From: Myxococcales bacterium
GTDB lineage: Bacteria > Myxococcota_A > Polyangia > Polyangiales > Houyiibacteriaceae
DNA length: 64,000 nucleotides
Direction: 5' to 3'
Assembly (NCBI GenBank): GCA_029861865.1
Contig: JAOTYL010000012.1
Span: 62,001-126,000 of the forward strand
Shown piece after piece: positions 11,495 to 49,158 of the stretch (position 1 is the first letter of the stretch; every line of letters begins with the position of its first letter). Below the pieces are notes generated by a model that did not search any database, was not told the DNA's origin, and worked only from the letters and a program-made list of their open reading frames with translations. The position numbers were made by a program, and so were the translations under genes.

Positions 11495-12124
11495 ATGAAT
11501 CTGCTTCGCCTGCTCGGCCTGGTCATTCTGATAGCGTCGCTGGCAGCCTGTGGAGACGCAGCACCCGCAGCGCCAGGCACCGGCGGCACCACCGGCACAG
11601 GCGCAACCCCAGGCACAGGCGCAACCGGCGGCACAGGCGCAACCGGCGGCACAGGCGGAATCGGCGGGTCGGGCGGAACCGGCGGGTCAGGGGGGATGTC
11701 AGGCGCAGGCGGCATGGGCGGCCTCACAACCGTGGACGCCTGCAACACGGACCCGGGTGATCTCGAGGTTATCCAAATGACGATTCCGAACTTGCGCTAC
11801 TGGGCCGCCAGATGCGCAACGGTTAGGTGCGACCATCTGATTTTCGTCGACCGAGAGATGTTCGTCGAGTGCGTGACCTCATGTGTACAGCGAGACGCGA
11901 CGCCATCGGACCAACTCTCATCCGACTGTGCAAACTGCTACGGGGAGCTGGCGTGGTGCGCAGGATTCGACTGCAACACCCTATGCGCCAGCACACTCGT
12001 GGCGATATGCGGTAACGTCGCCTGTATCGGTGGCACAACCGGTATGGTCTGCGAGGACTACGACGTTTGTCTGAACGAGCTGAGCGTTTGTGCGGGGCGC
12101 GACTCACTCGATTGCTTCATGTGA
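11495..12124 (+). CDS. Gly/Thr-rich lipoprotein with Cys-rich domain
   Basis: A 209-residue secreted lipoprotein of unknown function. Signal peptide with lipobox SLAAC (Cys19), then about 55 residues of near-pure Gly, Thr, Ala and Ser (GTGATGGTGG-type) as a flexible linker, then a compact domain of about 135 residues with some fourteen cysteines, very likely disulfide-bonded. The linker is encoded by short tandem repeats of the GGCACAGGCGCAACC kind, so its length probably varies between strains. The layout of lipobox, Gly-rich spacer and Cys-rich head is common in myxobacterial surface proteins. No enzyme motif is seen. Confidence 0.75.
   Translation: MNLLRLLGLVILIASLAACGDAAPAAPGTGGTTGTGATPGTGATGGTGATGGTGGIGGSGGTGGSGGMSGAGGMGGLTTVDACNTDPGDLEVIQMTIPNLRYWAARCATVRCDHLIFVDREMFVECVTSCVQRDATPSDQLSSDCANCYGELAWCAGFDCNTLCASTLVAICGNVACIGGTTGMVCEDYDVCLNELSVCAGRDSLDCFM
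11571..11720 (+). repeat. tandem 9-15 bp coding repeat in Gly-rich linker
   Basis: Direct repeats of GGCACAGGCGCAACC and shorter GGCGGC units inside the lipoprotein gene at 11495. They encode the Gly/Thr/Ala spacer. Unit lengths are multiples of three, so copy-number change would keep the frame. Confidence 0.7.
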
Positions 12125-12161
12125 GCCCATACAATCATTCGCACGACACTACCGCCGTCGC

Positions 12162-12300
12162 AGGCACTGCCACTGACGCCGTCACTGGCACTGTCCCTGG
12201 CGCTGGCACTGGCACTGGCGCTGGCACTGACGCTGGCACTGCCACTGCCGCTGGCACTGTGCCTGACACTGTCACTGGCACTGCCGCTGTCACTGTCCTC
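12162..12300. repeat. GGCACT/GGCGCT hexamer array, intergenic
   Basis: About 23 degenerate hexamers (GGCACT, GGCGCT, GACACT, GCCACT) fill this gap between two genes. The 12125-12488 gap holds only this array and about 180 bases of nondescript GC-rich sequence with no credible gene. The reverse complement is the GCCAGY repeat seen at 1846-1887. The open frame on the minus strand through it is a product of the stop-free hexamer, not a gene. Confidence 0.75.
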
Positions 12301-12488
12301 GAGGAGTAGGTGCCCCGGGCCGCGCTGCAGGCATGTCCTCGAGCGCGAGTTCCGCAGGCGCCGGTCCATCGTGCCGAGGCCAACAGCCAACAGGGCGTCG
12401 AAATCGGTTCCTCGCATCCCCGCCGAGGATGTCTGAGCGGGCGAGGGCGTGCCTGCGGCGCGGTCCGGGGCACCGGTTGACACAGAGT

Positions 12489-14183
12489 CTACGGACTCAT
12501 CTCGTATTCGTCTTTGAGCTCGTACACCTGCTGCCAGACCCGCTGGTAGCGTCCTTCGTCGAATACCGGCTTGCGGACCATTTCGAGACAGCACTCCATC
12601 TGCTTCTCGTTGCTCGAGGGCTTCGAATACAAATTGAGAGCATGGCGTGAGAAATCTCGAACCATGAAATCGAAGATCTGATCGACCACGTCGTCCGAGA
12701 CATCGTAGATGTTCGCGTTCTCCAAGATCAGTTGCCCGTAGACGACCAACGCGAAGATCTCCCCTCCAGCCAGAAGAAAATCGATGTCCTTGCGCTGCCC
12801 CTCGTCGGGCGGCGAAGCAAGCATCATCTTCTTGAAGGCGGCGATCTGCTCCCTGAACACTGCCAAGTTCGCGGTGTCCCGGCTCGAGTAGGCGATCTCG
12901 TAATCGTGAAAGCGAATCTTGCTGAGCCCCTTGGTCGGGCCCTGGTCGAAGAGGAAATCGTCGTTAGCAGCCTGGTCCTGGCGTGCCACTTCGGTGTAGT
13001 CGCCCGGCGCGAAGAAGTAGTTCGCCATAAACTTCACGATGAGCGCGATATTGACGTGCACCGTGCCTTCGAGCTTCGGCAAAGCGCGAATGTCGACCGC
13101 AGCTTGCTCGAAGAACATGTCCTTCTCGAAGCCCTTGGCCGCGATGACATCCCACAAGAGGTTGATGACATCCTCGCCCTGCGTGGTGACTTTCATCTTC
13201 ACCATCGGGTTGTAGAGGAGATATCGACGGTCTTCAGGTGACGCGACCCGCATGTAGTCGGCTGCCCGAAGCGCAAACAGTTTCATCGCCACCAATCGCG
13301 CATACGCATCGATAAACATCTGCTTCACGTGCGGAAAGTCGGTGACATGCATGTTGTAGAGGCGTCGGTTGGCCGCGTGATCGATCGCTTCGTAGAGCGC
13401 GTGCGTGCACATCCCGATCGAAGCCCACCCGAGGTTGTACTTCCCGATGTTGACCGTGTTGAGCGCGCTGTTCCACGCGTGGTCTCCCCTGGCGATGATG
13501 TCGGCGTCGGTGACTGGATAGTCCTCGAGCTCGTACTGCGAGACGTAGTTCTGGCTCGCGCACACGTTCTTCACCAAGTTGTACTTCTCGTGCTGCGAAT
13601 CTACGCCGAAAAACACGTACTCTCCCGAGTCAGCAAGCTTACCGAATGTCGAGACGATCGCGGCCTTGTTGCCGTTTCCGATGTAGTACTTCCCGCCGCG
13701 CGCCGTGTAGCGGCCGTCACCCTTCGGTGTGAGGGTCATCTCGGTGGAGTAGACGTCTGCGCCGTGCTCTTTTTCCGACAACCCAAAGGCGAAGATGCCG
13801 CCCTGCTCGAGCGCCTTGGCCGCTCGCTTCTTGATGTCATCGTTTTCGCTCATCCAGATCGGCCCGAGACCGAGGACGGTGACCTGCCAGGTGTACCAAT
13901 ACTGAAGCCCATAGAAACCGAGGATCTCGGCAAACTCGCAGACCCGCCACGTGTCCCAACGCGAGTCGGCAGCGCCATACCCCTCGGGGGTGCACATCGT
14001 CGCGAAGATCTGCTCCTCTTTGACGAAATCGAGGAAGTCGGCGTACCAAACCCGGGCGTGATAGTCCTCTTTGATTCGGCCCTTGCCCTTGCGCTCGAAG
14101 AACTCGATCGTCTTGAGCATTACTTCGCGTGTTCGTTCGTCGGGATAAGGTCGCTGATGCTTTTTCGGATTGAGGAGAATCAT
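12489..14183 (-). CDS. acyl-CoA dehydrogenase family protein
   Basis: A 564-residue flavoprotein of the acyl-CoA dehydrogenase superfamily, longer than the usual 380-400 residues and therefore of the long bacterial class. The FAD and substrate-binding middle domain shows FGLSEKEHGADVYSTEMTL and ARGGKYYIGNGNKAAIVST, a clear match to the family block around the beta domain. The helical C-terminal half follows, with an extra ~130-residue extension ending in KQMECCLEMVRKPVFDEG. It would oxidise an acyl-CoA alpha-beta bond and pass electrons to ETF. It stands alone between the hexamer array and the hydrolase operon. The substrate chain is unknown. Confidence 0.85.
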   Translation of the reverse strand: MILLNPKKHQRPYPDERTREVMLKTIEFFERKGKGRIKEDYHARVWYADFLDFVKEEQIFATMCTPEGYGAADSRWDTWRVCEFAEILGFYGLQYWYTWQVTVLGLGPIWMSENDDIKKRAAKALEQGGIFAFGLSEKEHGADVYSTEMTLTPKGDGRYTARGGKYYIGNGNKAAIVSTFGKLADSGEYVFFGVDSQHEKYNLVKNVCASQNYVSQYELEDYPVTDADIIARGDHAWNSALNTVNIGKYNLGWASIGMCTHALYEAIDHAANRRLYNMHVTDFPHVKQMFIDAYARLVAMKLFALRAADYMRVASPEDRRYLLYNPMVKMKVTTQGEDVINLLWDVIAAKGFEKDMFFEQAAVDIRALPKLEGTVHVNIALIVKFMANYFFAPGDYTEVARQDQAANDDFLFDQGPTKGLSKIRFHDYEIAYSSRDTANLAVFREQIAAFKKMMLASPPDEGQRKDIDFLLAGGEIFALVVYGQLILENANIYDVSDDVVDQIFDFMVRDFSRHALNLYSKPSSNEKQMECCLEMVRKPVFDEGRYQRVWQQVYELKDEYEMSP

Positions 14184-14304
14184 AACCCTACTTTGATAGC
14201 ACGGGCGCGCCGGAAACCATACCTCGCAAAATCGGCAAAGGTTTAGCCAAAAGCAAAAAGGGCGACCCGCTGTGAGTCCACCCTCTCCGCGCTTGGAAAT
14301 GACC

Positions 14305-15411
14305 TCAATCTCGACGCGCCGATGGTCGGCGTCTCTTCCGCGACTTGGAGGTCAGGAAGCTGCGGATCTCCTGCGCGATGGCATCGCCGTCTTCCTCCAG
14401 GGCGAAATGCCCGGTGTCGAATAGGTAGAATTCGAGATTCTTGAGATCTCGCTTGTACGGGTGCGCGCCGGCCACTGGGAAGATCTCGTCATTCGCGCCC
14501 CAGACGATGAGCGTCCGCGGTTGATGTTGGCGAAGGTACGCCTGCCAGTCTGGATAGAGAGGTGGGTTGCTCCCGTAGTCGTAGAACAGCTGGAGTTGAA
14601 TCTCCGCATTTCCGGGGCGGTCCAGGAGCCTCTGCGTGACATGCCAATTGTCGGGGCTGATCGTCTCCGTGTTGCGAACCCCATTAGTGTACTGCCACTG
14701 CGTCGCACCCAAAGTCACCAGGAACCGAAGGGCGTCTTCGTTCGCCATGTTCGGCTGCTTGTACGCGGCCTTGACGTTCTTCCAGAAGTCGCTGTCGAGG
14801 CCCTTGTTGATGGCGGCGCGGTCTTTCCAATACTCCTTGATGGGCTCCCAGAAATCGTTGTCGATTCCTTCTACGTACGCGTTGCCGTTCTGTATGATCA
14901 GAGCATCGACACGCTCGGGGTGTTTTGCGGCCAGACGGAAACCGATCGGCGCCCCGTAGTCCATCAGATACAAGGTGTAACTCTTGAGCCCGAGCTTCAC
15001 CGTGAGTTTCTCGATGATCTCGCTGAAGTTGTCGAACGTGTACTCAAACTCGTCGACGGGAGGCATCGAGCTGTTCCCGTAGCCGGGGTAGTCTGGAGCC
15101 ACCAAGTGAAACCGGCCCGCCAGAGCGGGAATGAGATTACGGAACATGTGCGAGGAGGTCGGGAAACCGTGCAGCAGCAAGATGGTTGGCGCGTTTGGCG
15201 AACCGGCCTCGCGATAGAAGATCGATTGCCCGTCGATTTCGACCGTGCGGTACATGACCTGGGTCGTGTCGACCTTTGAAGTATGGGCTTTGTCGGCAAC
15301 CTTGGCTTGGGTCGTATCGGCGACCGTGGCCAGGGCTACCCCGCAGGCTACGACCAGCGTGATGGCGGCGAGCTTCGTGGGACTGTGATCGATGTTGTTC
15401 GATAGATTCAT
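14305..15411 (-). CDS. alpha/beta hydrolase, haloalkane dehalogenase/epoxide hydrolase-like
   Basis: A 368-residue alpha/beta-fold hydrolase with an N-terminal hydrophobic leader (residues 1-35), suggesting export or anchoring. The oxyanion block [13 protein letters not shown], the nucleophile elbow LMDYGAP with Asp rather than Ser, and the catalytic His in FDTGHFAL are visible. An Asp nucleophile is the mark of haloalkane dehalogenases and epoxide hydrolases, though the substrate is not settled. It is the last gene of a three-gene minus-strand operon, overlapping the PNPOx-fold gene by four bases, downstream of a predicted sigma-54 promoter. Expression is therefore probably induced through the PAS activator at 16908. 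Confidence 0.82.
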
Positions 15412-16061
15412 GATTCTCTTCCTTGTTCGCGTCCGCGCTCTTGCGCGTTGCGTTGTTCGATGGCCATGAGAGCGGCGAGCTCTCCCTCTAGCTCGGTGAT
15501 TCGCCGTCCGAGCTTTTCGATGACCGGATTGATCTCTTCTTCGGTGAAACGCGGCCGGATGTGTTGGGGGCAGTTCGTGTCCCAGGCCTCGACGTGAAAC
15601 ACGAACACGCGTTCGGGGCGGGCCTCGTAACCCGGATCGACGAGACGCTCGAGGAGAGCCGGATCGTCGTCGACCACCTCGGCACGGCCCCAGATCTTGA
15701 CTCGGCGCCGGTTCGGGTAATCCATGAGAAAGATGTAGGCCCGGTCATTCTCGGAAAGATTGCCCATCGAGATGTACTGCCGATTTCCGGCGTAGTCGGC
15801 GAAGGCGAGGGTCGATGCGTCAAGCACCTTGAGAAAGCCTTTGGGGCCGCCACGGTGCTGGATGTAGGGCCGCCCGTCGGCACTCGCCGTTCCCAAGTAG
15901 AACGAATCACGCTCCGCAATGAAGGTCTTGAGGTCGTTGTCGATTCGGTCGCTCCATCCGCCCCGTTCTTCCATTCGTGCGTAACTACGACGCGAACCGT
16001 TGAGTGCCTGCAGGGCCTTCACGGCTGGAGTGAATGCGATATCGCTGATTGCAGTAGACAT
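15408..16061 (-). CDS. pyridoxamine 5'-phosphate oxidase-fold flavoprotein
   Basis: A 217-residue protein of the PNPOx-like split-barrel family. [31 protein letters not shown] is the canonical flavin-binding beginning, and [21 protein letters not shown]-like sequence follows. A C-terminal coiled extension ([19 protein letters not shown]) lies beyond the barrel. These proteins bind FMN or F420 and reduce or sense small molecules; this one is not the vitamin B6 enzyme by context. GGAGAGAATC precedes the ATG at 16061. It is the middle gene of the operon between the isochorismatase-fold and alpha/beta hydrolase genes. Confidence 0.83.
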
Positions 16062-16077
16062 GATTCTCTCCCGTTCG

Positions 16078-16755
16078 TTAGTTGGCCGTCGCTGCGATGG
16101 CCGCGAGCGCCTCTTGGGTCGTCCAGACTGCGTTTGCGAGGAAGCGGAAGTTTACGACGGCCGACTGATAGCCGTTCCCTTCCTCGACGATAGCCGCGGC
16201 GGTGGCGTCCTTTGCAACGGCCACCTCGAACCCTTGCTCGAGGAGCTCCCGGAGGTGCGATTCGGTGCAAAGGTTCGCTGACATCCCGGCGAGAATCACT
16301 TTGTCGATGCCGCGCTTGCGAAGCTGAAGAACGAGATCGTTGCTTTCGGGCCCGTACACCTTGTGCGGGCTGGTAATGATGGTTTCTCCATCCTGGATGT
16401 ACCGCTTGTATTGCTCGAGCCAGTCGGCGCCAGAGCCTTCGAAGCCCTCGAGACTCAACGCGTTCGGACGATCGAACATACCGATTTGGTGCATCAGCGC
16501 CTCGAGCGCCCCCTCGAAGTGCCAACGGTGGTCGGTCGCGTAGTAGTAGTGCGGGGAGACGAAGACCGGCAGCTTGGTTTCCTTGGCTGCCTTGAACAGC
16601 GATTCGATGTTCTCTACCGTCTTGTTTTCCGTCACGCTCTTGCCGACGACCCCCCAGGTCACGCCGCTAGGGCTGAGGAAGTCGTTTTGTGGGTCGGTGA
16701 CGACGAGCGCTGTGCGTGCGGGGTCGATGGTCATTCCGGGGTTGGGCAGTGCCAT
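16078..16755 (-). CDS. isochorismatase-family cysteine hydrolase
   Basis: A 225-residue cysteine hydrolase. The catalytic Asp is in VVTDPQNDF (Asp21), the Lys is probably in TSPHKVYGPES, and the nucleophile Cys is in GMSANLCTESHLR, giving the Asp-Lys-Cys triad of the fold. Members hydrolyse isochorismate, N-carbamoyl amides or nicotinamide; which one here is unknown. A strong ribosome site AGGAGGA lies nine bases before ATG 16755. It is the first gene of the operon, with a -24/-12 promoter at 16795-16810 and a palindrome at 16875-16902, so it should be controlled by the activator encoded directly upstream. Confidence 0.85.
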   Translation of the reverse strand: MALPNPGMTIDPARTALVVTDPQNDFLSPSGVTWGVVGKSVTENKTVENIESLFKAAKETKLPVFVSPHYYYATDHRWHFEGALEALMHQIGMFDRPNALSLEGFEGSGADWLEQYKRYIQDGETIITSPHKVYGPESNDLVLQLRKRGIDKVILAGMSANLCTESHLRELLEQGFEVAVAKDATAAAIVEEGNGYQSAVVNFRFLANAVWTTQEALAAIAATAN

Positions 16756-16794
16756 GGTGTCCTCCTGCAGACAAAGTCGGATGCCGATCCCGTT

Positions 16795-16810
16795 TGCAAA
16801 GGGCGTGCCG
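16795..16810 (-). promoter_or_regulatory. sigma-54 (RpoN) -24/-12 promoter
   Basis: On the minus strand the sequence reads CGGCACGCCCTTTGCA. It matches the RpoN consensus TGGCACG-N4-TTGC at every position but the first T, with exact GG-to-GC spacing (GG at 16809-16808, GC at 16797-16796). Transcription would begin near 16784, leaving about 30 untranslated bases before the start at 16755. The adjacent gene encodes a sigma-54 activator, which supports the call. Confidence 0.8.
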
Positions 16811-16874
16811 CGGCGTGCGCCGCTCTCTGGAGCGAAAAGAGAGGTCGATCAGCCAGCAAGACGACGAACACCCA

Positions 16875-16902
16875 CGACATCTCGTAGAACTACGAAATGT
16901 CG
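16875..16902. promoter_or_regulatory. 28-bp palindrome, probable activator upstream site
   Basis: Outer arms CGACAT...ATGTCG and inner arms TCGTAG-AA-CTACGA form an almost perfect 28-base inverted repeat. It begins six bases after the activator stop codon and its centre is about 85 bases upstream of the -24 element, a usual distance for an enhancer-binding protein site. It could instead form an RNA hairpin after the activator gene, but no U tract follows on the minus strand, so an operator reading is favoured. Confidence 0.65.
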
Positions 16903-16907
16903 GCCGT

Positions 16908-18401
16908 CTAGGCAGCGCCGGTTTTCTTGGCGATGCCGAGCTTCTTCATACGAGATCGAAGCGTATTGGGATGCAGGCCAAGGACCACGGCGGCCCCTCG
17001 ATCGCCCTCCATGCGCCATCCCGTTTGCTCTAAGACGCTTACGATGTGATCGCGTTCGACCTGATCGAGGGTACGTCGATCCGAAGACGCGCCAGAAGCA
17101 CCAGACGCGCCTGGCACCGGCGGTCGAGCCTCGAGCGCCTCATCCACGCGAAGGGTCGAGTCCGTCGAAAGGATGACCGCTCGCTCGATGACATTTTCGA
17201 GTTCACGCACATTTCCCGGCCAATCGTAGCTTTGAAGCGCCTGCTGAACTTGTTGCGGAATGTGGTCGATCCTTTTCCCTAGCTTGACCGAGAATTTCCG
17301 CACGAAGTGCGTGACCAAGCGGGGGATGTCTTCCTTGCGATCACGAAGCGGAGGCACTGTCACGGGAAAGACGTTCAACCGATAGTAGAGATCGTCGCGG
17401 AAGTCTCCGGCCCATACCGCTTTGGTAAGGTCACGATTCGTTGCAGCGACGATGCGTATGTCCACTTGGATGGTGCGCGAGCCGCCGAGCCGCTCGAACT
17501 CCCCTTCCTGGATCACCCTGAGCAGCTTCGCTTGTAGCTCTAGCGGCAGCTCGCCGATTTCATCGAGGAAGATCGTGCCACCGTGAGCGAGCTCGAAACG
17601 ACCCACTCTCTGGGCAGTTGCGCCCGTGTAAGCACCCTTTTCGTGGCCAAACAGCTCACTTTCGATCAACGTTGAGGGCAACGATGCGCAGTTGACTTTG
17701 ACGAGAGGCCGCTCGCTCCTCGGGCTCAAGTTGTGTATCGCCCTCGCAATCAGCTCCTTGCCCACGCCGGTCTCTCCGAGCACCAGAACCGTGGCATCGG
17801 TCGCCGCAACCTGTTCGATGCGACCCTTCGTCTCTGCGAGGGCACCGCTCTCTCCAATCATTTCCTCGAAGTTGTGGCTGCCCTTGATTTCCTCCCGCAG
17901 GTAGAGATTTTCGGCCTGGAGGCGCTCCTTGAGCTGCTCGACCTCGGTGAGGGCGCGTTCGAGTGCGTCCTGCTGGCGTTTTCGGTCCGTGATGTCGTTG
18001 AAGGTAACGACCGCGCCTGCTAGCTCGCCTGCCTCATCACGAATGGGAGTGCTCACGTACTCCACGGCCATGCTGGTTCCGTCCTTGCGCCAAAACACTT
18101 CGTCGTCGACGCGGTGGACCTTTCCGTCCTTGAAAGCACTATAGATGGGACACTCTTCGCGCGGATAAGTCGACCCGTCCGGTTTGGTGTGATGGATGAC
18201 TGCGTGCTGCGGCTTGCCAATGAGCTCGTCGATGGTCCAACCGAGCATCTCCGCCGCAGCCGGGTTGACGAACGTGGTCTGGCCTTCGCGATCTAAGCCG
18301 TAAATGCCTTCGCCTGCGCATCGCAATATGAGCTCGTTCTGGCGTTCGAGCGCCTCGATCGTGAGGGAAGGCTTCGGTTCGCTTGAACGTCGTCGCGGCA
18401 T
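16908..18401 (-). CDS. PAS-domain sigma-54-dependent transcriptional activator
   Basis: A 497-residue enhancer-binding protein. A PAS sensor domain occupies about residues 20-140 (ending [14 protein letters not shown]), followed by a short coiled coil, then the AAA+ domain with Walker A GETGVGKE at 209-216, the sigma-54 contact loop GAYTGA at 256-261, Walker B FLDE at 278-281 and a [12 protein letters not shown] block. A Fis-type HTH at the C-terminus includes [22 protein letters not shown]. There is no receiver domain, so it probably senses a ligand or redox state directly through PAS. The operon with an RpoN promoter lies immediately downstream and is the obvious target. Confidence 0.93.
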
Positions 18402-18496
18402 GGTTTGTGCTTGAAGTGAAGCGGACTGAGATCGACAAGCCTAGTGCTTCATTGCCGCAAAGACTACCCTCGCAGCCGAGGGAGCAAGGAGCCGAT

Positions 18497-18931
18497 ATGA
18501 CTCAGGAACAAGCCAAGCCTCCATTCCCGCCCTTCACCTTGGAAACGGCAAAAGCCAAGGTGCAGGCTGCGCAGGACGCCTGGAACACTCGGGACCCGCA
18601 CCGTGTGGCGCTTGCCTACACGGTCGGCTCTCAATGGCGCAATCGGTCCGAGTTTATCGATGGCCGCGAAGCGATTCGGCAGTTCTTGAAGCGAAAATGG
18701 GAACAGGAGCTCGACTATCGCCTCGAGAAGGAGCTCTGGTGCCATGACGGGAACCGCATTGCCGTCACGTTTCGCTACGAATGGCACGATGACGCGGGAC
18801 GATGGGTCCGGTCTTACGGAAACGAGCTGTGGGAATTTGCGGACAATGGTTTGATGCGGAGGCGAATCGCGAGCATCAACGACATCGCGATCCAAGAAAG
18901 AGAACGTCAGTTTCGTTGGCCGCGCACTTGA
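18497..18931 (+). CDS. DUF1348 / NTF2-like protein
   Basis: A 144-residue protein of the DUF1348 family (NTF2-like, SnoaL-type cone fold). ATG 18497 is preceded by [24 protein letters not shown] and the stretch [23 protein letters not shown] are hallmark sequences of the family, and the end ([16 protein letters not shown]) is also typical. Members are small cytosolic proteins without a proven common reaction. It is divergent from the PAS activator with about 95 bases between and could share its regulation, though nothing proves this. Confidence 0.85.
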
Positions 18932-18937
18932 CTCCGT

Positions 18938-20071
18938 TCAAAATGCGTTGACGCCGAGGCCTGCCATCATAGCGAAGTAGGGATTGTCGACCATCCAGTT
19001 AGCCGGGAACGCGTACCCGACGCGCGCATAGACCTGCCAGATCCCCCAACGAAGGTCGGTAGTGATCGCCACGCCGCCGATCCCGCCAAACTGTTTGAGA
19101 TCGCCGACCCGGAAGGGGTCGTTCACCGTGCCACCGGAGATCAAAAGCCCGAGCTCTTGTGGCTTGTTCTTCTTCACGCGAACGTTGCCGCTCACCTGCG
19201 CGACGAACAGGCGCTCGGAAAGGATCGCCGACCACGGCAGGCCGGGCACCACGACCACGTAAGGGTTCATGCCTGCCACGCGCATGCGAGTGATGTCATC
19301 TTGGCCTTCGCCCCAGTTGGCGGTGTCCCCGAGCTCGAGGCGAAAGCGATCGCCAAAACGCCACCCCGCCTTGAGCCATTGGTTGATCGTCAAGATCCCT
19401 TTGGACGGGTCGTTGCGCCCGTCGGGGAGGCCCCAGGGGGTGATGTTCGAGCGCACATCGACCCCGATCCACGCGCCGACTGCAACCCCTTCGATCCGCG
19501 GGAACAAGCGGTCGGCGCCCCACTCCTCGGAGGGCGAAGTCACATTCCAATAGATGTAGCCGAGTCGTGGCTCGAACACCCAGCTGTTCCTGGGGAGCAG
19601 ATACGTCGGGTCGGTGTTGTTGCTCCCGAAGAACCAGTAGCGGACGTTGGTCAGGAGCTCGAGCGTGTGGTGGTCGCCAGCGTGCCACTGAATTTTGGGC
19701 AAGAGCACCACGTAGCTTGCGTTGAAGCCGAGCCCATCGACGCGCTTGCCCTGCTGGTAGTAGTAACGAAGCAACCCAGCGAAAATGAACTCTGCCCGCA
19801 ACGCCACCGAAAACTCGAAGTTCTTGCCGAACGATAGACGATCGAGCCCGACCTCGACGGTGTCGGTGTTGTAGTAGAGGCGAAGGTCCGCATCGCGGGC
19901 AATGTCCGCCCGCGTTGCTTGGAACAGAACCCACCCAAACCCGACGACCTCGGGCGCTAGCCCAAAGTCACCTCCACCTGCGACTTGCCCATGCCACTTC
20001 GTGTCGGCGTCGGCCTGGGCAACCGAAGATGCAAACATTACGGCGCAACAAAGGACCACGATGGTTCGCAT
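18938..20071 (-). CDS. predicted outer-membrane beta-barrel protein
   Basis: A 377-residue protein with a cleavable signal peptide (first 20 residues, ending AQA) and a mature part of alternating-polarity strands rich in Gly, Tyr and Trp. The C-terminus ends in aromatic Phe (AGLGVNAF), as outer-membrane barrels do. Segments such as LLRYYYQQGKRVDGLGFNASYVV and LRWGIWQVYARVGYAF read as transmembrane strands. I do not recognise a named family; a transport or structural role at the outer membrane is inferred. Convergent with the DUF1348 gene, six bases apart. Confidence 0.7.
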   Translation of the reverse strand: MRTIVVLCCAVMFASSVAQADADTKWHGQVAGGGDFGLAPEVVGFGWVLFQATRADIARDADLRLYYNTDTVEVGLDRLSFGKNFEFSVALRAEFIFAGLLRYYYQQGKRVDGLGFNASYVVLLPKIQWHAGDHHTLELLTNVRYWFFGSNNTDPTYLLPRNSWVFEPRLGYIYWNVTSPSEEWGADRLFPRIEGVAVGAWIGVDVRSNITPWGLPDGRNDPSKGILTINQWLKAGWRFGDRFRLELGDTANWGEGQDDITRMRVAGMNPYVVVVPGLPWSAILSERLFVAQVSGNVRVKKNKPQELGLLISGGTVNDPFRVGDLKQFGGIGGVAITTDLRWGIWQVYARVGYAFPANWMVDNPYFAMMAGLGVNAF

Positions 20072-20189
20072 CGGACGAGGATATCACGGACGAAGTTCAC
20101 GCAATACGTGATCGAGTGCCCACACTCCGCCCCGTCAGGAGCGAACGGCACGGTAGCCTCTCCTCGGACCGAGCAGTAGTATTGCTCTG

Positions 20190-20516
20190 ATGCCGGACCA
20201 CTCCGAGATGGAAGTACTGGTCGCCGCGCGTGATTGGAAGCTCGCGAGCCACGGTGTTGCGCTGGCCACAGTGGTCAAGACCTGGGGTTCCTCTCCGCGA
20301 CCCGCCGGGAGCCACCTCGCGGTTCGGGATGACGGCTTCTTCTTAGGGTCGGTCTCCGGGGGTTGTGTCGAAAGCGCTGTCGTTGAGGAGGCCCTCGACG
20401 TCATGAAGTCGGGGCATTGCAAGGTTTTGGAGTTCGGCGTCACCAACGAGCGAGCATGGGAGGTGGGCCTGGCCTGCGGGGGCACCGTCCGCATCTTCGT
20501 GGAGCCTTTGCAATGA
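20190..20516 (+). CDS. XdhC/CoxI family protein, N-terminal domain only
   Basis: A 108-residue protein equal to the XdhC_CoxI Pfam domain standing alone. ALATVVKTWGSSPRPAGSHLAV and GSVSGGCVESAVVEEAL are the family's conserved blocks. XdhC-type proteins bind molybdenum cofactor and help sulfurate or insert it into xanthine dehydrogenase-family enzymes, including CO dehydrogenase. It overlaps by four bases with the gene for the C-terminal Rossmann half, so the usual single chain is split in two here. It lies on the plus strand, converging on coxF. Confidence 0.85.
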   Translation: MPDHSEMEVLVAARDWKLASHGVALATVVKTWGSSPRPAGSHLAVRDDGFFLGSVSGGCVESAVVEEALDVMKSGHCKVLEFGVTNERAWEVGLACGGTVRIFVEPLQ

Positions 20517-21193
20517 AGACCGGGACTCTCGAGAAGGTGCTGGCCGATGTCGAAGCCAAGAGACCCATCGTATTGGCGACCGATCTCGAAACCGGCGAGC
20601 AGCGTCTGCTCCGCCGGGGTAATGGTGACTCCGAATTCGAACGCGCCAATGTCGAACGAGCTTTGCGAGTGGATACTTGCATCACCACAGACGCTGAAGG
20701 GGCTCCGCAGGTCTTCTACCAACCCTTCAACCCACCGCTTCGCATGATCTTGGTCGGCGCCGTGCACATCGCCCAACCGCTATCGGCGATGGCTACGCTC
20801 ACCGGTTACGAAGTCACCATCGTCGATCCCCGCGAGTCGTTTGCGGCGACCGAGCGCTTCCCGGGCGTTGCCTTGAACCTCGAATGGCCCGACGAGGCTT
20901 TGGAGGCACTCTCGTTGGATGAGCGCTGCGCCGTGGTCACGCTCACCCACGACCCAAAGCTCGACGACCCGGCCCTTCAAGTCGCGCTTCGGAGCGACGC
21001 CTTCTTCATCGGCTGCCTCGGAAGCAAGAAAACCCACGCTTCACGTCTACGCCGGCTCGAAAAGGCTGGGTTCTCCGAGTCTGAGCTCGCCCGCATCAAA
21101 GGCCCGGTCGGCCTCCCGATCGGCTCCCGCTCCCCCGCAGAGATCGCCGTCTCCGTCCTAGCCCAGGTCACCGAAACCCTTCGAAAGCCATAA
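20513..21193 (+). CDS. XdhC C-terminal Rossmann-domain protein
   Basis: A 226-residue protein; ATG 20513 overlaps the stop of the upstream gene. The first 80 residues carry a short partial CoxI-like part (RPIVLATDLETGEQRLL). Then the XdhC_C Rossmann domain begins with MILVGAVHIAQPLSAMATLTGYEVTIVDPR, includes VVTLTHDPKLDDPAL and FFIGCLGSKKTH, and ends with GLPIGSRSPAEIAVSVLAQVTE. These are typical of full XdhC. Role: maturation of the molybdenum cofactor for CO dehydrogenase, with the coxI-like partner. Convergent with coxF, which is a second full-length XdhC. Confidence 0.87.
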   Translation: MKTGTLEKVLADVEAKRPIVLATDLETGEQRLLRRGNGDSEFERANVERALRVDTCITTDAEGAPQVFYQPFNPPLRMILVGAVHIAQPLSAMATLTGYEVTIVDPRESFAATERFPGVALNLEWPDEALEALSLDERCAVVTLTHDPKLDDPALQVALRSDAFFIGCLGSKKTHASRLRRLEKAGFSESELARIKGPVGLPIGSRSPAEIAVSVLAQVTETLRKP

Positions 21194-21254
21194 AGGGGAC
21201 AGTCCCCTTTTTCGAAGGGTTAACCGATGCAAGAAGGGGACTGCCCTCTTTTAC
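21191..21254. terminator. bidirectional hairpins between convergent xdhC genes
   Basis: AAAGGGGA-CAG-TCCCCTTT with following T residues forms an eight-pair hairpin at about 21192-21212. An inverted imperfect copy (GAAGGGGACTGCCCTCTTTT) stands at 21233-21252. The position between two convergent genes and the T/A runs suit terminators for both. The same GGGGACAGTCCCC palindrome is known to me as a common dispersed intergenic motif in related genomes, so a repeat element is also possible. Confidence 0.6.
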
Positions 21255-22114
21255 TCGTCGTGGCAGCAGGAGCTTTGGGCTTCGGTGCCGGTCGCTGTTG
21301 CCTCTTGTTGGGGTGCCTTCGAAGGGCGCTCGGTCGTCACTGCGATCGATTCGCGCTGCGCGGTGATCGCGGCGATGATGCTGACGGCGATCTCTTCTGG
21401 GGTTTTGGCACCGATGTCGATCCCCGCGGGGCCATCCACGCGACTCCACGCCTCACGAGACACGCCCCGGCGCTCCATGGATCCGTGAAGAGAAGAGAAA
21501 CGCTTCGGGCTCGCGACGACGCCGAGGTAAGCCGGAGCAAGCTCGACAGCCTTGGCGATCGCGTCTTCGTCGAACACCCCGTGGGTCGCGACGACGATGG
21601 CGGCTTCGTCCGAACGTCTGAGCTCGACCTCATCGAGGGAAGTGAGCACAGTCGCGCCTTCGAGCGGAGGGCGCTCAGTCATGTCGACCACCGTGACCAT
21701 GTAGCCCACCGCGACGCCGAGCTCGACAAGCGCTTGGGCGACCGGCGAGTTGCCGAACACCACCAACTCTCGCTTCGCCCGATGTGGCTCGAGGTAGATC
21801 TCGAGCTCACCGCCGCTGTAGCAAGTCATGGGGACGACGACGAGGCCCTCCCGGTCGTTGGGAAGGCCTTGATCGGGCGTGATCTGAACAACGCGACAGG
21901 CGCCATCCGAGAGCGCAAGCTCGGCTTCCTTCTTGATGGTCGGCTCTGCACAGCTTCCACCGATCCATCCGTGCACTACTCCCTCCTCGGTGACCACGGC
22001 CTTGTCGCCTGGCTTTGCGGAGGTGGGTGCGACCGCGCGGATAACCGTCGCCAAGACATAGCCCTCGCCCTTGGCCTCGAGCTCCTTCGCCGTCCGATAC
22101 CAGCGGTCCATCAT
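21251..22114 (-). CDS. coxF: XdhC family CO-dehydrogenase maturation factor (CoxF-like)
   Basis: A full-length 287-residue XdhC protein, the last gene of the cox operon, 20 bases after coxL. The N-terminal CoxI domain shows GYVLATVIRAVAPTSAKPGDKAVV and GWIGGSCAEPTIKKEA; the Rossmann domain shows RELVVFGNSPVAQALVELGV and ends with GIDIGAKTPEEIAVSIIAAI. A tail of about 30 residues ends in CCHDE, a possible metal or cofactor ligand. In Oligotropha, CoxF is needed to complete the Cu/Mo active site. Mature function here is inferred from that. Confidence 0.85.
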   Translation of the reverse strand: MMDRWYRTAKELEAKGEGYVLATVIRAVAPTSAKPGDKAVVTEEGVVHGWIGGSCAEPTIKKEAELALSDGACRVVQITPDQGLPNDREGLVVVPMTCYSGGELEIYLEPHRAKRELVVFGNSPVAQALVELGVAVGYMVTVVDMTERPPLEGATVLTSLDEVELRRSDEAAIVVATHGVFDEDAIAKAVELAPAYLGVVASPKRFSSLHGSMERRGVSREAWSRVDGPAGIDIGAKTPEEIAVSIIAAITAQRESIAVTTERPSKAPQQEATATGTEAQSSCCHDE

Positions 22115-42486: not shown

Positions 42487-45400
42487 CTAAGGCAACACAC
42501 AGGCGGGAAGACAGCCGAGCGGTCCACTGCCGTTGTTGACGCCGTCATCGCAACCCTCGGTTCCTTGGATCAAGGCATCACCGCAGCTCTGGATCGTGAA
42601 GCAGAACCAACACAGCCCCTCGCCACCGGTATTGATGCCGTCGTCACAGATCTCCGGAGCCACGGGCGTGCTGTCGCCACAGGTCGCCGGTCCGATGATA
42701 CAGCCTGGGAAACATCCGAGTGGACCGGTGCCGCCTATGTCGTTGACGCCGTCGTCGCATCGCTCGGTGCCTTCGATCACGGCGTCGCCACAGCTCTGAA
42801 TGAAAGCGCAGGCCACGCACTGCCCATCACCGCCGTCGTTGAAGCCATCATCGCACGCTTCGGTGCCGTCTGCGGTTCCATCGCCGCACACTTGCAGCTT
42901 GTTGCAGCCGGCCAGACATTCGCCGGGTCCGCCGTCGTTGGTACCGTCGTCGCAAACCTCGGTGCCTTCAGCGATCGCGTTGCCGCAGTTCTGAATGCCG
43001 AGACAACCGGGCAAGCATTCTCCCTGACCACCATCATTGAGCCCGTCGTCGCAGATCTCGGTGCCCTCGACCGCGCCATCACCACAGACCTGGACCAGGC
43101 TGCAGCCGAAGCACTCGTTGTCGCCACCGTCGTTGACCCCGTCGTCGCAGACCTCACTGCCCTCGACCGTTCCGTTACCGCACGCGGCAGGCGGGTTGCA
43201 GCCCGGGAGGCACTGGCGTGGACCCGTGCCATCGTTGACGCCGTCATCGCAAAGCTCGGTGCCCTCGGTGACGTTGTCGCCACAGAACTGAACCTTCAGA
43301 CACCCACCGAGGCACTCGCCCTCGCCGCCGTCGTTGGTGCCGTCGTCGCAGACCTCGGTGCCATTCGGCACGCCATCGCCACAAACTTGAATTCCCACGC
43401 AGCCGGCCACGCACTGACCTGGGCCACCGTCGTTGACGCCATCGTCACAAACCTCGGTCCCTTGGACCAGCGTGTCACCACAGGTCTGCACGCCGGTGCA
43501 ACCGGGCAGGCACTCGTTGTTGCCGCCGTCGTTGACCCCGTCGTCGCAAACCTCGGGGGGTTCGGGGATGCCGTCACCACAGCTCGCAGGCGCCGTGCAC
43601 CCAGGCAAGCAGTTGAGCGGCCCGGTCCCGTTGTTCACGCCGTCGTCGCAGGCCTCGGTGCCGTTGGTGACCGCGTCACCGCAGCTCTGAATGGCGAAGC
43701 ATCCGGAGACACACTCACCCTCGCCGCCGTCATTGACCCCATCGTCGCAGGCTTCGGTGCCGTTGGTCACGGTGTCACCACAGTTTTGAAGGCCGCCACA
43801 GCCGCCAAGGCACTCGCCCTCGCCGCCGTCATTGGTGCCGTCGTCACAGACCTCTAGGCCCTCGACCACGCTGTCGCCGCACACCGACGGCGGCTGGCAA
43901 CCCGCAAGGCAGAGCAACGGTCCGGTGCCGTCGTTCACACCGTCGTCACAGGCCTCGGTGCCCTCGGTGACCGCGTTACCGCAGGTCTGAATGACCGTGC
44001 ATGCGAAGCATTCGAGATCGCCGCCGTCGTTGATACCGTCATCGCAGACCTCAGGCGGCTCCGTGACACTGTCGCCGCAGTTTGCTGGTGGGGCGCAACC
44101 CGGGAGACAGAGGCCGGGCCCGGTGCCGTTGTTCACGCCGTCATCGCAGGCTTCGGTGCCCTCGGTGACCGCATCACCGCAGACCTGGACCCTCGTGCAA
44201 CCAGCCAGACACTCGTTGTCACCGCCGTCATTGGTGCCGTCGTCGCACACCTCGGTCCCATTGGCCACGCCGTCGCCGCAGTTCTGGAGGCTCAGACATC
44301 CGGCCACGCACTCTCCGGCGCCGCCGTCATTGAAGCCATCATCGCAGAATTCCGTGCCCTGCGTGATGTTGTCGCCACAGCTCTGAAGACCAGTGCAGCC
44401 CGGGAGACACTCGCCTTCGCCGCCGTCGTTGACGCCGTCGTCGCAGACCTCCGGAACTTCGGGAATCCCATTGCCGCAGTTTGCCGCGGCGGTGCAGCCA
44501 GCGAGACAACCGAGCGGACCGGTGCCGTCGTTGACACCGTCATCGCACTGCTCCGTACCTTCGGTGATCGCATCACCGCAGCTCTGAATCACGGTGCAGC
44601 CGAGGCACTCGCCCTCACCGCCGTCATTGGTGCCGTCGTCGCATAGCTCAGTGCCCTCAACCGTGTTGTCACCGCAGGCCTGAATTGTGAGGCAGCCCGG
44701 CGCGCACTGACCCTGACCGCCGTCGTTGGTGCCGTCATCGCACACCTCGGTTCCCTCAGCGACGCTGTCCCCACAGCTCTGGAGCTTCGCGCAGCCGGGC
44801 AGGCACTCGCCTTCATCACCATTGTTGATGCCGTCATCGCAGAGCTCCGGCGGCTCGGCCACGCCATCTCCACACGCCGCTGGCGAAAGGCAGCCCGGCA
44901 GGCAACCAAGGAGGCCCGTGCCATCATTCGTGCCATCGTCGCACTGCTCGGTCCCCTCGGTGACCGCGTCGCCGCAGCTCTGGATCTTCTGGCAGGTCGG
45001 AAGGCATTCGCCCTCACCGCCGTCGTTGGTGCCGTCATCGCAGAGCTCGGTGCCCTCAATGACGTTGTCGCCGCAGGTCTGAATCGTGAGACAGCCCGGC
45101 GCGCATTGTCCCTGACCGCCGTCATTCACCCCATCGTCGCAAAGCTCGGTGCCTTGCGTGAGGCTATCGCCACAGCTCTGAAGGCCGGTACAGCCAGGCA
45201 AGCACTCGGCTTCGCCACCGTCGTTGACGCCATCGTCGCAGACCTCCGGCACCTCGACCACGCCGTTGCCGCACGCTGCGGGCGAAGTGCAGCCGGGGAG
45301 ACAGCCGAGGAGGCCCGTGCCATCGTTGGTGCCGTCGTCGCATTGCTCGGTCCCTTCGGTCACCGCGTCGCCACAGCTCTGGATCTTCTGGCAGGTCGGA

Positions 45401-48400
45401 AGGCATTCGCCCTCACCGCCGTCGTTGGTGCCGTCATCGCAGAGCTCGGTGCCCTCGATGACGCCGTCGCCGCAGGTCTGTATCGTGAGACAGCCTGGCG
45501 CGCATTGTCCCTGACCGCCGTCGTTCACCCCATCGTCGCAAAGCTCGGTGCCCTCCGCGATGCTGTCGCCGCAGAACTGGAGCTTCGCGCAGCCCGGAAG
45601 GCACTGACCCTCATCGCCATTGTTGACGCCGTCATCGCAGAGCTCGGGCGGTTCGACCACGCCGTCGCCGCAAGAGGCCGGCGAAAGGCAGCCTGGGAGG
45701 CAACCGAGGAGGCCCGTGCCATCGTTGGTGCCGTCGTCGCACTGCTCGGTCCCCTCGGTCACCGCGTCACCGCAGCTCTGGATGCCGAAACACGTGGCAA
45801 GGCACTCGCCCTCGCCGCCGTCGTTGATGCCATCATCACAGACCTCGGTACCCTCGATGACACCGTCGCCGCAAGTCTGTATCGAGAGACACCCTGGCGC
45901 GCACTGGCCTGGATCCCCGTTGTTGACGCCATCGTCGCAGAGCTCGGTGCCCTCCGCGATGCTGTCGCCGCAGAACTGGAGCTTCGCGCAGCCCGGAAGG
46001 CACTGACCCTCATCGCCGTTGTTGACGCCGTCATCGCAGAGCTCGGGCGGTTCGACCACGCCGTCGCCGCAAGAAGCCGGCGCCAGGCAACCAGCGAGGC
46101 AGCCCAATGGGCCGACACCGTTGTTGACGCCGTCGTCGCACTGCTCGGTCCCCTCGGTCACCGCGTCGCCACAGCTCTGAAGCTTCTGACAGGTCGCGAG
46201 GCACTCGCCTTCGCCTCCGTCGTTGATGCCGTCGTCGCAGACCTCGGTGCCCTCAACCACCGCATCGCCGCAGGTCTGGATCGTGAGACACCCTGGCGCG
46301 CACTGACCCTGCCCGCCGTCGTTGACCCCATCGTCGCAAAGCTCGGTGCCTTGGGTGAGGCTATCGCCGCACGATTGGATCCCGACGCAACCGGCCAGGC
46401 ACTCGCCTTCGCCTCCGTCGTTGAAACCGTCGTCACAGATTTCGGGGGCTTCGACCACACCGTCGCCGCAGGCTGCCGGCGCGAGACAACCCGGGAGACA
46501 ACCGAGGAGACCCGTGCCGTCGTTGACGCCGTCGTCGCACTGCTCGGTACCCTCGGTAACCGCATCGCCGCAGGTCTGGATCGTGAAGCAACCCGGCGCA
46601 CACTCGCCTTCGCCACCGTCGTTGAAGCCGTCATCGCAGAGCTCGGTGCCCTCGGCGACGCCGTCGCCGCAGGTCTGAATCGTGAGACACCCTGGCGCGC
46701 ATTGGCCTGGGTCCCCGTTGTTGACGCCGTCGTCGCAGAGCTCGGTGCCTTGGCGCAGATTGTCGCCGCAGACCTGGATGCCGACGCAGTTGGCGAGGCA
46801 CTCGCCTTCGCCGCCATCGTTGGTGCCATCGTCACAAACCTCCGGCACCTCGACCACGCCGTTGCCGCAAGCGGCCGGTGACAAACATCCCGCCAAACAG
46901 CCGAGCGGACCGAGGCCATTGTTGACCCCGTCGTCACACTCTTCGGTGCCTTCAGTGACCGCGTCACCGCAAGTCTGAATCGTCACACAACCCGGCGCGC
47001 ACTCGCCCTCGCCACCGTCATTGAGGCCGTCGTCGCAAAGCTCTTTGCCCTCGGCAACTCCGTCGCCACAGGTTTCGAAGGTCAGGCAACCTGGGGCACA
47101 CTGGCCTGGGTCACCATCGTTGACGCCGTCGTCACAAAGCTCGGTGCCTTGGCGGAGGTTGTCGCCGCAGCTCTGGATGCCGATGCAGCCGGAGAGACAC
47201 TCGCCTTCGCCACCGTCGTTGAAACCGTCGTCGCAGGCTTCGGGAACCTCGATCGTGCCGTTGCCACAGCTCGCAGGCGCTAGACAGCCTGCCAGACAAC
47301 CGAGGGGACCGAGGCCGTTGTTGAGGCCGTCGTCGCATTCCTCGGTGCCTTCGGTGACCGCGTCGCCGCAGGTCTGAATCGAAGTACAACCCGGCGCGCA
47401 CTGGCCCTCGCCGCCATCGTTGAAGCTGTCGTCGCAAAGCTCCGTGCCTTCGACCACGCCGTCGCCGCAATTCTGGAACGTGAGGCAGCCCGGGGCACAT
47501 TGTCCGGGATCACCATTGTTGACCCCGTCGTCGCAAAGCTCCGTGCCCTCGGTGACGTTGTCGCCGCAGCTCTGCACGTCGAAGCACCCTGGAAGACACT
47601 GACCTTCGTCACCATTGTTCACAGCGTCGTCGCAGAACTCGGTGCCGTTGGTGATGCCGTCACCGCACACCTGAATGGCAAGGCAGCCGGCGGTGCACTG
47701 ACCGGAACCGCCGTCGTTGACGCCGTCGTCGCAGACCTCGGTGCCCTGGGTCAAACTGTCGCCACAGCTCTGGACGAGCAAGCACCCGAGGCACTCGCCT
47801 TCGCCACCGTCGTTGACGCCGTCGTCACAGATCTCGGGAACCTCCACGGTGCCGTTGCCGCAGCTCGCGGGAGAGAGACAACCGGGCAGACACCCGAGTG
47901 GACCCGTGCCGTTGTTGACGCCGTCGTCGCACTCTTCGGTGCCCTGGGTCAAGACGTCGCCGCAGACCTGGAAGCCGACGCAATTGGCGAGGCACTCTCC
48001 CTCACCGCCATCGTTGAACCCGTCATCGCAGAACTCGGTGCCCTCGCTGATCCCGTCGCCGCATGTCTGGACACTCGTGCAAGTCAGGCATTCGAGCTCG
48101 CCGCCGTTGTTGACCCCGTCGTCACAAACCTCGGGCGGCTCGGTGATGCCATCGCCACAGCTCGCGGGGAACAAACAACCTGGAAGACAACCAAGCGTAC
48201 CAACGCCATCGTTCTGCCCGTCGTCGCACTCTTCGGTGCCATCGGTGACCGCGTCGCCGCAAAGCTGGAGCTTGAGGCACCCGGGAAGACATTCGTCCTC
48301 GCCACCATTGTTCTGACCGTCGTCGCAGACCTCGGTGCCGTCGGTGATGGCGTCACCACAGGCCTGAACCTTCAAACACCCAGGAAGGCACTCGCCCTCG

Positions 48401-49158
48401 CCACCGTCGTTGGTGCCATCGTCACACACCTCTTGGCGCTCGGCCACGCCGTCGCCGCACAAGGGGCTTGGAAGGCAGGTGACCAAGAATTGCCTGTCCT
48501 GGTCGCAAGCCACGTCGGTGTCGCTGACGTTGAGCAAGATCACATCGGTGCCCACCGAAGTGCAGGTATAGGTCGTCACTGCTGCGCTCGGGGCGGCGAT
48601 CGAACCGAGGGGCGCGCTCCAGTTGATCTGAAGAGGAGCGGTGCCGTCCGGATCGGTCGCCACGACGCTGAGATCGATCGTGTCGCCGAGGAACGCGCTT
48701 GCGCCGACGTCGACATCCTCGATGACCGGACAATAGTTGAGCTGGAACGTGATGTTGACCCCGATGTCGCCTTCCGGAGGATTGTTCACGCTCGTCGAGC
48801 AGGTGAGAATCATGGCCAGGAGAGTCGTCTCGCCCTCGAGGATGTCGAAGTTCGCCGACCCGTCGCAGAAGCGCTCGCCTGTATCCCGGTAGACGCCCAA
48901 CGACAGAGTGTAGTTGGTGGCGGCTGGAAGGGATGTGAGACTGAAGGTTGTCGTATCGCTGGTGACCTCGAGGTTACCAACGATGAAGTCGGGCAACTCG
49001 GTCGGATGCGAGATGATGTATTCGAGCCGATCCGCGCCAATTTCTTCGGCGGACAACTCCACCGTGACACGGACGGAGGTCTGCTGTTGCTCCCCCCCTT
49101 CGGCGCACGCGCTAAGCACGAATGTTAAAGCGACCAAAGCTATGAAGCGTGGACCCAT
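42487..49158 (-). CDS. giant Cys-rich-repeat lipoprotein (60 DUF4215-type repeats)
   Basis: A 2,223-residue surface lipoprotein from ATG 49158 (the frame extends nine codons further). Lipobox VLSAC (Cys18) precedes an N-terminal domain of about 215 residues with an Ig/cadherin-like stretch (LSVVATDPDGTAPLQINWSAP). Then 60 head-to-tail repeats of 31-37 residues follow, each near CGDGVVEGTEVCDDGxNDGG...C..GC with four Cys, the Myxococcus Cys-rich disulfide repeat. Every fourth unit from 12 to 44 is a GTGPLGC variant, so the array has a higher-order period of about 133 residues. It ends on a repeat without a membrane anchor. A rigid, disulfide-stapled, Asp-rich stalk is inferred, perhaps Ca-binding. 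Confidence 0.9.
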   Translation of the reverse strand: MGPRFIALVALTFVLSACAEGGEQQQTSVRVTVELSAEEIGADRLEYIISHPTELPDFIVGNLEVTSDTTTFSLTSLPAATNYTLSLGVYRDTGERFCDGSANFDILEGETTLLAMILTCSTSVNNPPEGDIGVNITFQLNYCPVIEDVDVGASAFLGDTIDLSVVATDPDGTAPLQINWSAPLGSIAAPSAAVTTYTCTSVGTDVILLNVSDTDVACDQDRQFLVTCLPSPLCGDGVAERQEVCDDGTNDGGEGECLPGCLKVQACGDAITDGTEVCDDGQNNGGEDECLPGCLKLQLCGDAVTDGTEECDDGQNDGVGTLGCLPGCLFPASCGDGITEPPEVCDDGVNNGGELECLTCTSVQTCGDGISEGTEFCDDGFNDGGEGECLANCVGFQVCGDVLTQGTEECDDGVNNGTGPLGCLPGCLSPASCGNGTVEVPEICDDGVNDGGEGECLGCLLVQSCGDSLTQGTEVCDDGVNDGGSGQCTAGCLAIQVCGDGITNGTEFCDDAVNNGDEGQCLPGCFDVQSCGDNVTEGTELCDDGVNNGDPGQCAPGCLTFQNCGDGVVEGTELCDDSFNDGGEGQCAPGCTSIQTCGDAVTEGTEECDDGLNNGLGPLGCLAGCLAPASCGNGTIEVPEACDDGFNDGGEGECLSGCIGIQSCGDNLRQGTELCDDGVNDGDPGQCAPGCLTFETCGDGVAEGKELCDDGLNDGGEGECAPGCVTIQTCGDAVTEGTEECDDGVNNGLGPLGCLAGCLSPAACGNGVVEVPEVCDDGTNDGGEGECLANCVGIQVCGDNLRQGTELCDDGVNNGDPGQCAPGCLTIQTCGDGVAEGTELCDDGFNDGGEGECAPGCFTIQTCGDAVTEGTEQCDDGVNDGTGLLGCLPGCLAPAACGDGVVEAPEICDDGFNDGGEGECLAGCVGIQSCGDSLTQGTELCDDGVNDGGQGQCAPGCLTIQTCGDAVVEGTEVCDDGINDGGEGECLATCQKLQSCGDAVTEGTEQCDDGVNNGVGPLGCLAGCLAPASCGDGVVEPPELCDDGVNNGDEGQCLPGCAKLQFCGDSIAEGTELCDDGVNNGDPGQCAPGCLSIQTCGDGVIEGTEVCDDGINDGGEGECLATCFGIQSCGDAVTEGTEQCDDGTNDGTGLLGCLPGCLSPASCGDGVVEPPELCDDGVNNGDEGQCLPGCAKLQFCGDSIAEGTELCDDGVNDGGQGQCAPGCLTIQTCGDGVIEGTELCDDGTNDGGEGECLPTCQKIQSCGDAVTEGTEQCDDGTNDGTGLLGCLPGCTSPAACGNGVVEVPEVCDDGVNDGGEAECLPGCTGLQSCGDSLTQGTELCDDGVNDGGQGQCAPGCLTIQTCGDNVIEGTELCDDGTNDGGEGECLPTCQKIQSCGDAVTEGTEQCDDGTNDGTGLLGCLPGCLSPAACGDGVAEPPELCDDGINNGDEGECLPGCAKLQSCGDSVAEGTEVCDDGTNDGGQGQCAPGCLTIQACGDNTVEGTELCDDGTNDGGEGECLGCTVIQSCGDAITEGTEQCDDGVNDGTGPLGCLAGCTAAANCGNGIPEVPEVCDDGVNDGGEGECLPGCTGLQSCGDNITQGTEFCDDGFNDGGAGECVAGCLSLQNCGDGVANGTEVCDDGTNDGGDNECLAGCTRVQVCGDAVTEGTEACDDGVNNGTGPGLCLPGCAPPANCGDSVTEPPEVCDDGINDGGDLECFACTVIQTCGNAVTEGTEACDDGVNDGTGPLLCLAGCQPPSVCGDSVVEGLEVCDDGTNDGGEGECLGGCGGLQNCGDTVTNGTEACDDGVNDGGEGECVSGCFAIQSCGDAVTNGTEACDDGVNNGTGPLNCLPGCTAPASCGDGIPEPPEVCDDGVNDGGNNECLPGCTGVQTCGDTLVQGTEVCDDGVNDGGPGQCVAGCVGIQVCGDGVPNGTEVCDDGTNDGGEGECLGGCLKVQFCGDNVTEGTELCDDGVNDGTGPRQCLPGCNPPAACGNGTVEGSEVCDDGVNDGGDNECFGCSLVQVCGDGAVEGTEICDDGLNDGGQGECLPGCLGIQNCGNAIAEGTEVCDDGTNDGGPGECLAGCNKLQVCGDGTADGTEACDDGFNDGGDGQCVACAFIQSCGDAVIEGTERCDDGVNDIGGTGPLGCFPGCIIGPATCGDSTPVAPEICDDGINTGGEGLCWFCFTIQSCGDALIQGTEGCDDGVNNGSGPLGCLPACVLP
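42490..48459 (-). repeat. 60-copy ~99-bp coding repeat with 399-bp higher-order period
   Basis: I counted 60 CGD/CGN-starting units in the encoded protein, from base 48459 down to 42490. Blocks of four units recur with 399-base spacing; for example the tract starting at 45571 recurs at 45970 with about one mismatch in 110 bases. This argues for recent segmental duplication of four-unit blocks. Such an array is prone to collapse in short-read assembly, so the true copy number may differ. Confidence 0.85.

Follow-up and report, generated by a model that had tools for sequence, protein, structure and literature searches.

Comparative analysis of the 64-kb stretch of DNA given here (the window, 64,000 nucleotides) indicated that it very probably carries a self-contained sigma-54 switch, in which an activator gene, a pair of predicted enhancer dyads, a -24/-12 promoter and a target operon belonging to that activator are all arranged on the minus strand (Table 1). 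Dimers of the activator would very likely bind two adjacent 12-bp dyads just downstream of their own gene. On a signal received through its PAS domain, the activator would form an ATPase ring, and this ring would remodel the sigma-54 polymerase poised at the -24/-12 promoter some 64 bp further on, so that the isochorismatase/PPOX flavoprotein/hydrolase operon is switched on. Activator binding, ring assembly and the start site are expected from what is established for proteins of this kind. The switch is of an ordinary type, and its setting is unusual and informative.

Table 1. Positions of the parts of the predicted switch and of the genes around it (window coordinates)
Feature	Position	Strand	Basis or remark
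Sigma-54 enhancer-binding activator, 497 aa	18401-16908	-	PAS + AAA+ + Fis-type HTH (Pfam)
PAS sensor domain, residues 23-137	17991..18335	-	PF00989
Fis-type helix-turn-helix (HTH), residues 444-488	16938..17072	-	PF02954, 1.1e-10
Activator stop codon	16910-16908	-	
Palindrome CGACATTTCGTAG-TT-CTACGAGATGTCG	16902-16875	-	
Left dyad of predicted enhancer, CCGACATTTCGT	16903-16892	-	twin-dyad motif comparison
Spacer between left and right dyad, 6 bp	16886-16891		
Right dyad of predicted enhancer, ACGAGATGTCGT	16885-16874	-	twin-dyad motif comparison; single in genome
-24/-12 (RpoN) promoter CGGCACGCCCTTTGCA, CGGCACG-CCCT-TTGCA	16810-16795	-	one mismatch to consensus
AGGAGG ribosome-binding site	16766-16761	-	sequence; precedes first operon gene
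Isochorismatase-family cysteine hydrolase, 225 aa	16755-16078	-	PF00857, 9e-25
FMN-binding PNPOx/PPOX-type flavoprotein, 217 aa	16061-15408	-	PF01243
Alpha/beta hydrolase, haloalkane-dehalogenase-like	15411-14305	-	PF00561, 8e-36
DUF1348 (SnoaL-like) gene	18497..18931	+	PF07080, 2e-63; divergent from activator

Gene order, domains and promoter sequence were read directly from the locus. Between its PAS and Fis-type domains, the activator matched the AAA+ domain PF00158 (residues 181-347, 6.9e-73) and the lid PF25601, and its AAA+ loop, GAYTGA, is a one-residue variant of the GAFTGA type. The preliminary description had proposed a three-gene hydrolase/flavoprotein operon with a strong ribosome site, and the AGGAGG sequence, the tight packing of the three genes and their Pfam domains agreed with this. 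The closest solved structures to the isochorismatase-family hydrolase were a putative isochorismatase, YecD, biuret hydrolase and RutB. The flavoprotein scored under the cut-off of an MSMEG_1061-type model, and the alpha/beta hydrolase, which has a signal-like N terminus and a start that overlaps the flavoprotein stop, scored under the cut-offs of haloalkane dehalogenase models. An acyl-CoA dehydrogenase gene lies about 120 bp beyond the operon and was not taken as part of it. The divergent DUF1348 gene has no twin-dyad site of its own here and is linked to the activator in relatives. The genome encodes a single copy of rpoN, and an Rfam search over positions 12000-21000 gave no match.

The near-perfect palindrome that had been described six bases after the activator stop codon was present, with 12 of 13 pairs around a 2-nt centre, but it begins 5 bases past the stop. 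Allowing three mismatches or fewer, it was the sole match in the window (0 expected from shuffles), and its 22-bp core was the sole match across the 4.23-Mb genome. A genome search for further copies before other RpoN promoters, as had been suggested, thus returned a single site and none elsewhere; with one site only, a wider regulon that takes in more than one operon was unsupported here. Because related sites show the dyad pair, two 12-bp dyads in tandem, each of the form ACGA-N4-TCGT, describe the element better than one palindrome does. We scanned 81 loci (80 fetched loci encoding activator relatives and this one) with a template of two ACGA-N4-TCGT copies at any spacing of 0-19 and a threshold of at least 13/16. 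Pairs were found at 47 of the 81 homologous loci compared with 29 of 405 shuffled regions (7%), and among the loci with pairs the spacer was 5 bp in 25, 6 bp in 7 and 7 bp in 3. The four ACGA/TCGT tetramers were about equally conserved while the spacer varied in length, so that each 12-bp dyad, rather than half of a long palindrome, is probably the unit for one dimer. None of the papers searched described an ACGA-N4-TCGT twin-dyad site.

A clear twin-dyad site was missing in several relatives, for example L009, L023, L042 and L043. Two relatives from Bacteroidota, L005 (7448-7476) and L007 (7408-7431), carry a different palindrome just past the activator stop, and the motif is therefore not family-wide. 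Their recognition helix differs too, as would be expected if site and helix changed together, in two cases only.

The -24/-12 promoter differs from TGGCACG-N4-TTGCW only in its first base, which is C for T, and transcription is predicted to start near 16784. A one-mismatch RpoN promoter had been reported 65 bases after the palindrome; the sequence and its place were borne out, and the gap is 64 bases. By itself the -24/-12 sequence is weak evidence, because the window holds 10 RpoN-type sites at two mismatches or fewer and 10.4 are expected. Within the 119-bp gap, its score was reached by 0.07% of shuffles. When RpoN sites (score of at least 0.87) were searched 30-135 bp from the twin-dyad site, they were found on the target side at 27 of 37 loci, at 46-88 bp, versus 0 of 37 on the non-target side and 0.1% of shuffles; these counts and those of the dyad pairs are descriptive and not independent, as the loci are related and the motif and promoter score were derived from the same locus set with ad hoc weights.

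The same arrangement was found in the closest relatives. In L002, whose activator is 87% identical, the site reads CCGAAATTTCGT-GGGTCC-ACGAGATACCGT with the promoter CGGCACGCCCCTTGCA at 65 bp, and in L003 (activator 81% identical) it reads CCGAGATTTCGT-GGCTCC-ACGAGATACCGT with the promoter CGGCACACCGCTTGCA, also at 65 bp. The first gene after the promoter differs in these two loci, and the positions of site and promoter are kept. In the Gemmatimonadota loci L004 and L044, sites of the type GCGATATTTCAC-GTACCC-GTGAGATGTCGT lie 30-36 bp past the activator and precede isochorismatase, hydrolase and DUF1348 genes. The genes behind the promoter are remodelled in both of the closest relatives: in L002 an additional gene, its leader copied, precedes the isochorismatase gene (L002:2730-3630), and L003 has lost most of the isochorismatase gene, with just the first codons remaining before the PPOX gene (L003:6253-6560).

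The presence of the site was then surveyed with a strict site pattern in this genome and 56 relatives. Of these 57 genomes, four contained the pattern, namely this genome, G004, G009 and G034. At the genus level (19 genomes), the site was present in three, which were exactly the three with the activator. G034, a more distant relative, has three twin-dyad sites within 8.2 kb of one contig (L097:1-8300), and its activator is on another contig (L092). The three sites precede an isochorismatase gene (79% identical to ours), a DUF1348 gene (60%) and a glycosyltransferase-like gene, and each has a -24/-12-like sequence downstream. The site therefore accompanies the target genes as well as the activator gene. 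From these comparisons we infer the site, its pairing with the activator and the promoter. They gave strong support to the earlier proposals that the palindrome is the activator's site and that the -24/-12 sequence is its target promoter.

To place the activator among known regulators, its relatives were compared by target genes and by a tree built from 70 activators. Most alpha- and gammaproteobacterial relatives have a cyanate-type ABC transporter opposite the activator, and many of them a cyanase gene as well; annotated plasmid records likewise have cynS and the transporter adjoining such activators. In an Acinetobacter plasmid record, the genes opposite the activator form a nitrilase/radical-SAM (Nit1C-type) cluster, and a third activator group precedes CcoG-like genes. 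Related activators from several bacterial phyla have the predicted twin-dyad site and promoter next to them, regulators of cyanate and cyanide use among them. On the tree, the target classes changed 3 times, the minimum possible being 3. Our activator grouped with isochorismatase-linked activators of Myxococcota (100/96) and then with those of Gemmatimonadota (91/86), outside the CynF/NitA (CYN/NIT) clade. At the CcoG-linked loci, the site before the ccoG-like genes was seen in L050:7447-9962, L008:7728-9945 and L015:7459-9057; oxidase-subunit-like genes follow the ccoG-like gene in L050 and L008, and narHJI is near the L050 site.

Expression of cynABDS in Pseudomonas pseudoalcaligenes CECT5344 requires CynF (PMC6627978), and NitA of the Nit1C cyanide/nitrile cluster is a Fis-family sigma-54 regulator (PMC11049912). 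The gene order at the cyanate- and nitrilase-linked loci agrees with what has been published for these two regulators. CynF is likewise a Fis-type sigma-54 activator adjoining its target operon, and the CynF-type loci examined share the PAS subtype (mean identity of about 61% over the domain) and the twin-dyad site, with the -24/-12 promoter mostly 57-88 bp from that site. However, annotated CynF-type proteins carry a further PAS at the N terminus whereas ours has a single PAS (CECT5344 CynF itself being outside the comparison), and they are divergent from the cyanate transporter/cyanase operon whereas ours is in line with the isochorismatase operon. CynF/NitA-type proteins have 617-641 aa; of the three tested, two (L102 and L104) gave an N-terminal PAS match, and the third (L105) has an additional N-terminal stretch. 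The NitA-type protein of the Acinetobacter plasmid has the same domain core, with 59 of 120 PAS-subtype residues identical to ours, and a twin dyad too, weaker and with ATGA/TCAT ends, but it differs in its other target genes, its extra N-terminal PAS and its long separate branch. The neighbours of our activator include no cyanate (cynABDS) or nitrilase (nit1C) cluster. Cyanase was not found in the genome, a weak negative because the family search scored in just 1 of 14 control genomes. The identification of the activator as CynF or NitA was ruled out by the absence of the extra PAS, the position outside the clade and the absence of adjoining cyn/nit genes. By the features tested, our activator is related to CynF and NitA, would work like them and is not one of them.

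A DUF1348 gene lies in or beside the cyanate transporter/cyanase operon at about ten loci and also occurs in isochorismatase operons of relatives. DUF1348 or NTF2-family genes in or next to cyanate transporter/cyanase operons were noted in L018, L020, L039, L042, L043, L045, L059, L103 and L105. The comparison gives a concrete predicted DNA site that an entire branch of PAS-type sigma-54 activators would share, the cyanate- and cyanide-linked ones among them. It also ties DUF1348, a family of unknown function, and the isochorismatase operon to this branch, which suggests inducers.

With regard to the signal, the preliminary description had the PAS domain sensing the operon substrate. Ligand-gated PAS regulators are common, which counts for such sensing in a switch that is otherwise as proposed, and the activator adjoins its only target operon, with a single site in the genome. 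However, activators whose targets are unrelated share about 60% identity in the PAS domain, more than in the AAA+ domain: between isochorismatase-class and cyanate-class activators, identity was about 61% for PAS, about 56% for AAA+ and 37% for the HTH. The comparison of PAS with AAA+ gave a similar picture for the CcoG/oxidase-subunit class. Moreover, PAS/GAF sensor proteins with other outputs, including histidine kinases (Deinococcus, cyanobacteria), contain the same PAS subtype at 48-59% identity. On these grounds substrate sensing was not supported, and we consider it unlikely. A general rather than operon-tuned signal is favoured, because the PAS domain is conserved across unrelated targets and in other sensor proteins. 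A signal common to the regulators beside cyanate/cyanide clusters is at least as likely as the operon substrate and probably likelier, and this is only a lead; the case for one shared signal from the conservation of the PAS domain is weakened by the occurrence of the subtype in other sensor proteins.

In the PAS domain, 28 positions were invariant in 43 relatives, including His66, His70 and Cys84, and Pro85 was nearly so. An AlphaFold2 model of residues 12-156 (pLDDT 91.5) had heme, flavin and other PAS domains alike as its nearest solved folds, and the solved-structure and fold searches gave general PAS relatives only and no ligand. Binding of a metal or heme by the domain is conjecture. It could be imagined that the operon and DUF1348 form an unrecognised response to cyanate, cyanide or another C-N compound, with a metal/heme PAS acting through the His and Cys-Pro residues and the isochorismatase-family enzyme acting on carbamoyl- or nitrile-derived products, and we give this scenario a small probability. 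A literature search returned nothing relevant linking isochorismatase or DUF1348 to cyanate or cyanide.

The palindrome might instead act in the activator transcript, as a terminator or RNA hairpin, and not as a DNA-binding site. It lies 5 bases past the stop codon, and no shuffled sequence gave as good an RNA fold (z -3.24). Nevertheless, no T run follows it, a terminator scan did not report it, and in L002 (z -1.4) and L003 (z -1.0) the fold is barely above shuffles while most of the ACGA/TCGT letters are kept. The same site also stands upstream of genes in the divergent cyn loci and is unlinked in G034. With the T run absent and the hairpin not clearly kept in relatives, the terminator was rejected as very improbable. 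The palindrome might also be bound by a different regulator, with the adjacent activator acting elsewhere. The number of strong sigma-54 activator domains in the genome (at least 22) speaks for this, but it is the least credible reading, since site and activator are present or absent together in the genus and the target class tracks the tree of this activator. Binding of the dyads by the adjacent activator is thus the reading that we retain.

Among curated models, FhlA scored best for the activator (419 bits, against a cut-off of 830), and the activator HTH shares 22 of 40 residues with the E. coli FhlA DNA-binding domain. The E. coli FhlA enhancer, CATTTCGTACGAAATG (PMC4987338), has the same TCGT/ACGA letters as our dyads; however, it is one compact 16-bp palindrome, whereas ours are twin dyads. 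No twin dyad was found in the E. coli hyc/hyp gene surroundings. FhlA, at 692 aa, also has a much longer N-terminal region without a convincing match to our PAS. The activator was therefore not assigned to FhlA, which was ruled out by the missed model cut-off and the different form of the site.

Elsewhere in the window, low-complexity repeats of 6/18/24 bp occur at 12147-12295, between a lipoprotein-like gene and the end of the acyl-CoA dehydrogenase gene. Genes at 20190-22114 appeared XdhC/CoxI-like by eye. A long tandem array with periods of 399 bp and 99 bp spans 44125-48432 and possibly encodes a repetitive cysteine-rich protein.
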